Below are positions 60,725 through 63,520 of a stretch of DNA of 64,000 bases, in pieces (within the stretch, counting starts at the first letter, position 1; every line of letters starts with the position of its first letter). The notes under the pieces were generated by a model. It did not search any database, had not been told where the DNA came from, and saw only the letters and a list, made by a program, of their open reading frames with translations. A program made the position numbers and the translations under genes. Source of the stretch: Arcobacter cloacae (GTDB lineage: Bacteria > Campylobacterota > Campylobacteria > Campylobacterales > Arcobacteraceae); contig NZ_CP053833.1 of NCBI RefSeq assembly GCF_013201935.1, positions 2,294,001-2,358,000 on the forward strand. The letters are read 5' to 3'.

Positions 60725-60747
60725 ATTAGTAATCCGAAACTTGTTTT
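60725..60747 (-). repeat. Inverted copy of the dispersed palindromic repeat (copy C)
   Basis: AATCCGAAACTTGTTTT (60731-60747) is the exact reverse complement of 62326-62342 beyond the porin gene. Directly after the folB stop. Confidence 0.7.
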
Positions 60748-60824
60748 GAACTAACAAACAAAATACAAGACAAAAATAGTCCCAAATTTCCCTTACAATA
60801 GCATTTGCACAGCATTAATAGTTT

Positions 60825-60862: not shown

Positions 60863-60904
60863 ACTGAAAATAACATTTTAAGAAAACTTTAAAATTTAGT
60901 GCTG

Positions 60905-61005
60905 TAGAATGGTCGCAACGGTATGTCGGAAAAGGTTTAAAACCTAGGTTTTAGATGAGTTCGCGCGCTCCGATAGACTGAATAAAGATTTCGAAATTTT
61001 AGGAG
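60905..61005 (+). promoter_or_regulatory. Porin promoter and GC-rich structured 5' leader
   Basis: TAGAAT (60905-60910) is the -10 box, start expected near 60917. CGGTATGTCGGA (60919-60930) pairs with TCCGATAGACTG (60969-60980): 11 of 12 positions pair, two as G-U. Inside are AGGTT/AACCT (60933-60945) and an alternative GAGT/GCTC pairing (60957-60970) that competes with the outer stem. AGGAG (61001-61005) follows. Confidence 0.55.
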
Positions 61006-61010
61006 AACAA

Positions 61011-62216
61011 ATGAAAAAAATCGCAAAATTAAGTTTAGTAGCTGCTGTTGCAGTAGCTGGTTTCTCAACTGCTAATGCTCAACCATTAGAAGAAGCAATC
61101 AAAAATGTAGAAGTATCTGGATCTGTTGTTTACAGATATAATGATGAAAATAACGATACTGCTGTTGATAAAAATTCAGATACAAACAACAATTATAAAG
61201 TTGCTTTAAATCTTTCTTCAAAAGTAAATGAAGATGTAAAATTTAATTCTAGATTTGTAATAGCTAAACCAAACGGTTCTGATTCAGATTTTGCAAAATT
61301 AAATACGCAAACTGAAGCTGATGCAAATCCTGAAGTAAGATTATCTCATGCATATTTTGGTTATACTGGAATTGCAAATACTACTGTTAATGTTGGTAAA
61401 CAAGGTTTAACAACTCCATGGACTGTAGCTATTGACTCTGACGGTGGAGAGCAAAATGGTACTGGTATCTTAGCTCTTTCAACAGTAGGACCTGTAACTT
61501 TAGCTGCAGCTTATTTCAACCAAACTAATTTAGATACTACGGCTGCAAAAGGTCTTCTAGTTACTGGTAATGTTGGTGCAAATGATATTGTGACTGTTGG
61601 GGCTATTGCTGATTTAGATGTTGTTACTTTAGATGCTTGGTACTTAGACTTAGCTGAGACTTTTGATTCTTATACAATTGGTGCAAAAGCTGACTTAGAT
61701 TTATCAGGAATTAAATTAGGTGTTGATGCAAGATATGCTTCTTTATCTTTAGATGATAGAGCACAAGTTGTATCTGGATTAAAAGAAGACAATTCTATTG
61801 CTAAAATTGCATTAACTGCAAAAGCAGGTATCGTAAATGGTAAATTAGCTTATGCTATGACTGATAAAGATGGTGGATTAACAGCATTAGACAATGATGC
61901 TAACACAACTTTATTAGGTTGGAATTTAAATGCTAATGGTAAAGCTGATGCTGATTATTGGCAAGCTGTTGTTGGTGTAGATGTGTTATCTAACTTAAAT
62001 TTATCAGCTAATTATGGAAATATTGAATATAAAGAAGGAACTGATAAAGTAGAAGGAGAAGAAATTTATGCACAATTAACATACAAAATGAGCAAAAACT
62101 TATCTACTTATGTTAGATATGGTTTATTAACTATTGATGAAACTTCTGCTGCTGGTGTAAAAAATGAAATTACAGATGGAACAGTTGGAAGATTACAAGT
62201 TGAATATACATTCTAA
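61011..62216 (+). CDS. Major outer membrane porin
   Basis: 401 residues. Sec signal peptide cut after TANAQ-type site (residue about 23). The mature part starts PLEEAIKNVEVSGSVVYRY and shows alternating beta strands with acidic loops, ending in VGRLQVEYTF with the C-terminal Phe needed by the Bam machinery. Fits the Campylobacter major outer membrane protein/porin family. A trimeric channel for small solutes is expected. Highly expressed judging by strong AGGAG site, structured leader and strong terminator. Confidence 0.88.
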   Translation: MKKIAKLSLVAAVAVAGFSTANAQPLEEAIKNVEVSGSVVYRYNDENNDTAVDKNSDTNNNYKVALNLSSKVNEDVKFNSRFVIAKPNGSDSDFAKLNTQTEADANPEVRLSHAYFGYTGIANTTVNVGKQGLTTPWTVAIDSDGGEQNGTGILALSTVGPVTLAAAYFNQTNLDTTAAKGLLVTGNVGANDIVTVGAIADLDVVTLDAWYLDLAETFDSYTIGAKADLDLSGIKLGVDARYASLSLDDRAQVVSGLKEDNSIAKIALTAKAGIVNGKLAYAMTDKDGGLTALDNDANTTLLGWNLNANGKADADYWQAVVGVDVLSNLNLSANYGNIEYKEGTDKVEGEEIYAQLTYKMSKNLSTYVRYGLLTIDETSAAGVKNEITDGTVGRLQVEYTF

Positions 62217-62250: not shown

Positions 62251-62280
62251 AAAGGGTTGGGGTTTCCCAACCCTTTTTTT
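62251..62280 (+). terminator. Porin terminator
   Basis: AAAGGGTTGGG (62251-62261) and CCCAACCCTTT (62266-62276), perfect 11 bp, loop GTTT, then T4. Strong intrinsic terminator. Confidence 0.92.
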
Positions 62281-62321: not shown

Positions 62322-62368
62322 ATCCAAAACAAGTTTCGGATTCCTATTAAAATATTTTATGTTATAAT
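62322..62368 (+). repeat. Repeat-promoter block, copy A
   Basis: Holds the AAAACAAGTTTCGGATT core (62326-62342) and ends in the extended -10 TGTTATAAT (62360-62368). It matches copy B at 62807-62859 except for two substitutions in the shared part, a differing first base and a 6-base gap. It drives the first toxin-antitoxin-like pair. Confidence 0.75.
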
Positions 62369-62806: not shown

Positions 62807-62859
62807 GTCCGAAACAAGTTTCGAATTCCTATTTCTATTAAAATATTTTATGTTATAAT
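62807..62859 (+). repeat. Repeat-promoter block, copy B
   Basis: TCCGAAACAAGTTTCGAATT is a near-perfect palindrome. The last 25 bases (62835-62859), ending in TGTTATAAT, are identical to 62344-62368 of copy A. A 6-base insertion separates the parts. It drives the VapBC pair. Confidence 0.75.
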
Positions 62860-63492: not shown

Positions 63493-63520
63493 CAGGAACT
63501 TGAAACAAGTTTCAGATTCT
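63493..63520. repeat. Degenerate palindromic repeat, copy D
   Basis: CTTGAAACAAGTTTCAGATTC carries the GAAACAAGTTTC core (63502-63513) with changed flanks. It lies just after the vapC stop and lacks the promoter part. Confidence 0.6.

Follow-up and report, generated by a model that had tools for sequence, protein, structure and literature searches.

The mRNA of the abundant outer-membrane protein OmpA of E. coli has a stabilising stem-loop in its 5' UTR that starts within a few nucleotides of +1. Porin leaders are also classic targets of small RNAs in enterobacteria. In H. pylori vacA, disruption of a stem-loop at +4 to +30 lowers the level and half-life of the mRNA, and restored pairing rescues them (PMC4843948). 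The suggested role of this stem-loop is to restrict RppH and RNase J in H. pylori, which lacks RNase E (PMC4843948). CJnc140 of Campylobacter jejuni is a separate small RNA, the deletion of which left PorA unaltered (PMC10470494). Further, Arcobacter sp. L was scanned for structured RNAs, and rare candidates confined to Arcobacter were left unnamed in that study (Stav et al., 2019; PMC6429828).

Here we describe the 5' leader of a porin mRNA of Arcobacter cloacae, in a window of 64,000 nucleotides (the whole stretch of DNA that was analysed). Positions 60917-61005 are preceded by a -10-like hexamer and followed by the start of a Campylo_MOMP porin gene (Table 1). This was the sole MOMP match found in the A. 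cloacae genome, and the porin is the main outer-membrane channel of Arcobacter-like bacteria. The porin leader element proper occupies positions 60917-60982 at the 5' end of the mRNA. As stated in the initial annotation, the leader is GC-rich, with a GC content of approximately 0.38-0.44 vs. approximately 0.17-0.30 just upstream.

Table 1. Features of the porin locus of A. cloacae (positions in the window)
Feature	Position	Strand	Basis
Conserved promoter element TTTAAGAAAACTTTAA (-40 to -25)	60877-60892	+	single exact match in the window
-10 hexamer TAGAAT	60905-60910	+	TAnAAT-type hexamer at a constant distance from AACGG
Putative transcription start (+1, A)	60917	+	conservation starts at AACGG and is low in the spacer
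P1 terminal stem, 5' arm	60919-60930	+	P1 covariation
Internal loop, 5' strand (AAAG type, well conserved)	60931-60934	+	alignments
P2 inner hairpin (arms 60935-60943 and 60948-60956, loop CTAG)	60935-60956	+	covariation
Core strand GUUCGCGCG, 3' side of the internal loop	60959-60967	+	near-invariance in the alignment
P1 terminal stem, 3' arm	60969-60980	+	P1 covariation
AU-rich palindrome ATTTCGAAAT	60988-60997	+	just upstream of the Shine-Dalgarno sequence
Shine-Dalgarno sequence AGGAG	61001-61005	+	sequence; largely open in predictions (mean 0.64 over 45 leaders)
Campylo_MOMP porin gene	61011-62216	+	Pfam PF05538, E 3.4e-33
Terminator-like stem-loop, 3' of the porin gene	62251-62276	+	pattern scan

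The promoter stretch from -40 to -7 had a mean identity of 0.91 to the relatives. It includes TTTAAGAAAACTTTAA, a sequence retained by almost every porin promoter that was read, including those of clade B, a group within the same genus, and possibly an activator site or a special promoter element. Of 46 species, 44 had a spacing of 6 nt between the -10 hexamer and AACGG, and the other two had 5 nt. Within this 6-nt spacer (-6 to -1), the mean identity to the window was 0.45, vs. 0.82 in the leader. Since the conserved part starts 6 nt past the -10 hexamer, the stem would start at approximately +3, with two unpaired nucleotides between the putative +1 and P1. The constant spacing thus supports the earlier claim that the stem starts almost at +1, a position that we infer from the conservation profile.

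Outside the element, the AU-rich palindrome ATTTCGAAAT was common to most leader types, both motif-bearing and motif-lacking, and was replaced by a different palindrome, ACAAATTTGT, in several leaders of one genus. The porin unit is flanked by an inverted pair of AATCCGAAACTTGTTTTG (60731-60748 on the plus strand and 62325-62342 on the minus strand), and degenerate copies are found nearby (62810-62827 and 63501-63518, both on the minus strand). Four copies with at most three mismatches were present vs. 0.12 expected. The 15-nt core of this sequence was absent from the loci fetched from other species, and it looks like a small dispersed repeat.

By folding energy, 60917-61005 does not stand out from sequences of its composition (z = -0.56; an equally good fold was reached by 51 of 200 shuffles), and the question was therefore settled by species comparison. 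In a DNA search of 60 relatives, congeneric species and members of two further genera were found to carry the leader, and a consensus of P1 and P2 from the aligned leaders was built into a covariance model (R1). In A. cloacae, the terminal stem P1 has 12 positions and 11 pairs, with one mismatch (A60923/G60976), and encloses the inner hairpin P2. Covariation was examined over 20 pairs in 46 aligned members, the alignment being fitted to the model. In this set, 93.6% of the cells were paired, and 14 of the 20 pairs varied on both sides. There were 96 compensated cells, compared with 22.4 in shuffles, and the covariation score was 0.405, compared with 0.181 when shuffled. None of 500 shuffles reached the real value on any measure, and slid registers were far lower. 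In P2, all nine pairs changed on both sides and 91% of the cells were paired. An independent count of P1, anchored at fixed positions at the top of the stem, was also made: the first five positions were paired in 45 of 45 leaders with CG/UA and UA/CG/UG pair types, and a UA/AU exchange occurred two positions further. Because the covariation and the anchor-based count agree, P1 and P2 are very probably real RNA helices. Thus the stem and the inner hairpin given in the initial annotation are both present and both supported by covariation, and the compensatory changes sought in the porin leaders of relatives were found for both helices.

The strand GUUCGCGCG was complete in 45 of the 46 aligned sequences, and the remaining one (L090) carried ATTCGCGCG. 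It was also found in five further loci (L120, L121, L127, L131 and L139), and L119 had GTTCGCGCA. This 9-nt strand follows P2 and precedes the 3' arm of P1; it is unpaired in the consensus structure and had no pairing partner there. It is near-invariant while the adjoining P2 freely changes its length and sequence between species. The helices covary, yet the core is nearly invariant. In single-sequence predictions, a shifted fold of near-equal energy pairs part of the core; this competing fold was not kept, its middle pairs being lost in L014, L015 and other genera. The core is the most telling feature of the leader and was overlooked in the earlier reading, which stressed two non-conserved features. 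One is the 14-base palindrome AAAACCTAGGTTTT (60939-60952), which is present in A. cloacae but, owing to a freely varying loop, is not shared beyond its close relatives. The other is the pairing of GAGT (60957-60960) with GCTC (60967-60970), which likewise exists in A. cloacae but is lost in L015 and several other genera. Separately, another outer-membrane-protein-like gene of the A. cloacae genome has TTTTGCGCGAAA in its probable leader (L102, positions 299-305).

With model R1, 48 of the 104 Arcobacteraceae genomes, from nine of 20 genera, were found to carry the element. It occurred once per genome, except for one weak extra match in G021, which is not a leader. Among the 32 loci read, a porin-type start followed in all except this weak match and L098, a locus cut off by the end of its contig. 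A refined model raised the number of genera to ten and detected one additional genome from a genus already represented; the element is thus present in about half of the 104 genomes (10 genera). When the refined model was applied to 399 genomes of the order, there was no match outside Arcobacteraceae. In a collection-wide pattern scan, 26 of the 37 hits were Campylobacterota or matched contigs already seen there; the other 11, in unrelated organisms, look like chance (five were inspected). One locus, L131, comes from a metagenome-assembled genome labelled 'Campylobacteraceae bacterium SI074_bin141' and has AACGGT followed by GTTCGCGCG upstream of a signal-peptide-like start. No Rfam 15 family matched within the leader at either threshold, and no paper describing it was found in the literature searches made. 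We regard the porin leader as a 5'-terminal mRNA leader element, absent from Rfam, with an unusual invariant core.

Several groups of leaders without the motif also had a stem-loop at the 5' end, of a different kind. In clade B, a shorter 5'-terminal stem-loop occupies the same place, with compensatory changes of its own and without GUUCGCGCG (folding z = -2.6 and -2.3). Two other genera possess leaders of the type AACATTGTG...CACAATTGTT or similar, the 5' end of which folds (z = -1.2 to -3.8). Since a 5'-terminal stem is found in motif-bearing and motif-lacking leaders, it is the common denominator among the family types examined. The sister species, which have the 5' stem without the core, therefore provide a natural comparison. 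A leader variant containing CTCGCGCG was observed in one genus (G031), and the leader was short in L163, which belongs to a relative in a different family of the order. Upstream of the porin in L167 (a g32 genome), a long 5' stem-loop contains UUUUGCGCAUCCGG, which resembles a degenerate core and may represent an intermediate leader type.

We give a probability of roughly 0.55 to the reading that the leader acts as an ompA/vacA-type stabiliser at the 5' terminus of the mRNA, with an added recognition core. With P1 formed, the mRNA would begin with no more than about two unpaired nucleotides, and so short a 5' end would hinder the removal of pyrophosphate and the loading of the 5'-3' exonuclease RNase J. 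The porin mRNA would be long-lived as a result. RNase J was found in 104 of 104 Arcobacteraceae genomes, RNase E/G exceeded the curated cut-off in none of the 104, and vacA provides a precedent; protection of the 5' end is therefore the most likely role of P1. The ompA-like stem proposed in the initial annotation was the best of its options, as judged by the start at approximately +3, the compensatory changes and the 5'-terminal stems formed by unrelated leader sequences in sister clades, but it leaves the invariant core unaccounted for. Stabilisation alone falls short here because a plain stem needs no invariant unpaired 9-mer. The lack of the core in clade B and the competing fold of similar energy are further points against the combined reading. 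The core might serve in recognition or contribute to a compact tertiary fold, and could make the protection stronger or adjustable via a protein or a ligand.

A more tentative possibility is that the leader belongs to a new class of cis-regulatory RNA, in which the core loop would form a protein or ligand pocket, or an exonuclease-resistant 5' tertiary fold, that sets porin output. If so, a new RNA class would set porin output in bacteria for which Hfq, CsrA and RNase E went undetected. A regulatory switch, which seems doubtful to us, would use the core loop as an aptamer or protein-binding site, and binding would refold the leader and set porin translation or decay, in a riboswitch-like manner or under autogenous or envelope-stress control. 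The near-invariant strand between covarying helices is as in aptamers, and the two folds of near-equal energy in single-sequence predictions also point in this direction. However, the second of these folds is not conserved, a pattern scan found no intrinsic terminator in the leader, and no Rfam family matches. Further, every confirmed site has one and the same gene context, unlike most riboswitches. Thus, of the riboswitch option in the initial annotation, the conserved aptamer-like core stands, whereas neither a terminator nor a platform sequestering the Shine-Dalgarno sequence was found and there is a single gene context. The Shine-Dalgarno sequence was predicted to be open from 10 to 37°C; its mean openness over 45 leaders was 0.62 at 10°C vs. 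0.64 at 37°C, and it was mostly open at 25°C as well. The proposed thermosensor is not borne out by these predictions. A pairing of GUUC/UCC with GGAGAAC at the Shine-Dalgarno sequence was also considered and rejected: GUUC stays when the context becomes GACA, GAAA, GAAU or GAUC, and therefore there is no covariation between the two.

That the core could be a transcription-factor site downstream of the promoter (GTTCGCGCG) is suggested by its near-invariance as DNA and the strongly conserved promoter. This is unlikely, as P2 and the 3' arm of P1 flank the core in every case, the distance of the core from +1 shifts with the length of P2, and the flanking arms covary as RNA. Pairing of a trans-acting small RNA with GUUCGCGCG would agree with the unpaired state of the core in the consensus structure and with the role of enterobacterial porin leaders. 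We consider it quite improbable: GCGCGCGAAC with at most one mismatch occurs in the leader alone, outside the leader the shorter GCGCGAAC is absent from the A. cloacae genome and from at least G020, G014, G108, G103 and G081, and none of the six other GCGCGAA sites in the A. cloacae genome was recognised as a small RNA gene. Hfq was found in 0 of 104 genomes, and the target for an Hfq-type small RNA suggested earlier is accordingly disfavoured. Control by CsrA was rejected, since PF02599 was detected in 0 of 104 genomes while control genomes were positive. C. jejuni has a CsrA that has been studied, as indicated in PMC4892619, and in Arcobacteraceae the protein is either lost or too divergent. 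Finally, an upstream ORF (ATGAGTTCGCGCGCTCCGATAGACTGA, MSSRAPID*) could control porin translation; of the 17 closest leaders, 16 have its ATG in frame with its TGA. This is scarcely credible, because the ATG is missing in L015 and other genera (e.g., AUUGUUCGCGCG and AUGGUUCGCGCG) while the core persists.

A compact and widespread leader with a near-invariant core offers a direct handle on post-transcriptional porin control in Arcobacteraceae. Such control is worth asking about because Hfq and CsrA were undetected and no RNase E/G exceeded the cut-off in the 104 genomes.

The porin leader resembles that of ompA in having a stem within a few nucleotides of the putative +1. The two differ in protein family and in the nuclease involved, which is RNase E in E. 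coli vs. RNase J in Arcobacteraceae. Further, we know of no invariant internal-loop strand in ompA. CJnc140 is similar in being a non-coding RNA upstream of C. jejuni porA, a MOMP gene of a related family (PMC10470494); it is a separate small RNA, whereas the porin leader element lies inside the porin mRNA. The main text of Stav et al. (PMC6429828) makes no mention of a porin or outer-membrane motif, and the porin leader could be among the candidates of that study. The vacA stem-loop shares with the porin leader the phylum, a position near +1 and compensatory changes (PMC4843948). In contrast to vacA, in which a simple hairpin is formed and pairing rather than sequence matters, the porin leader comprises the larger P1-P2 structure with an invariant core and is conserved across genera.
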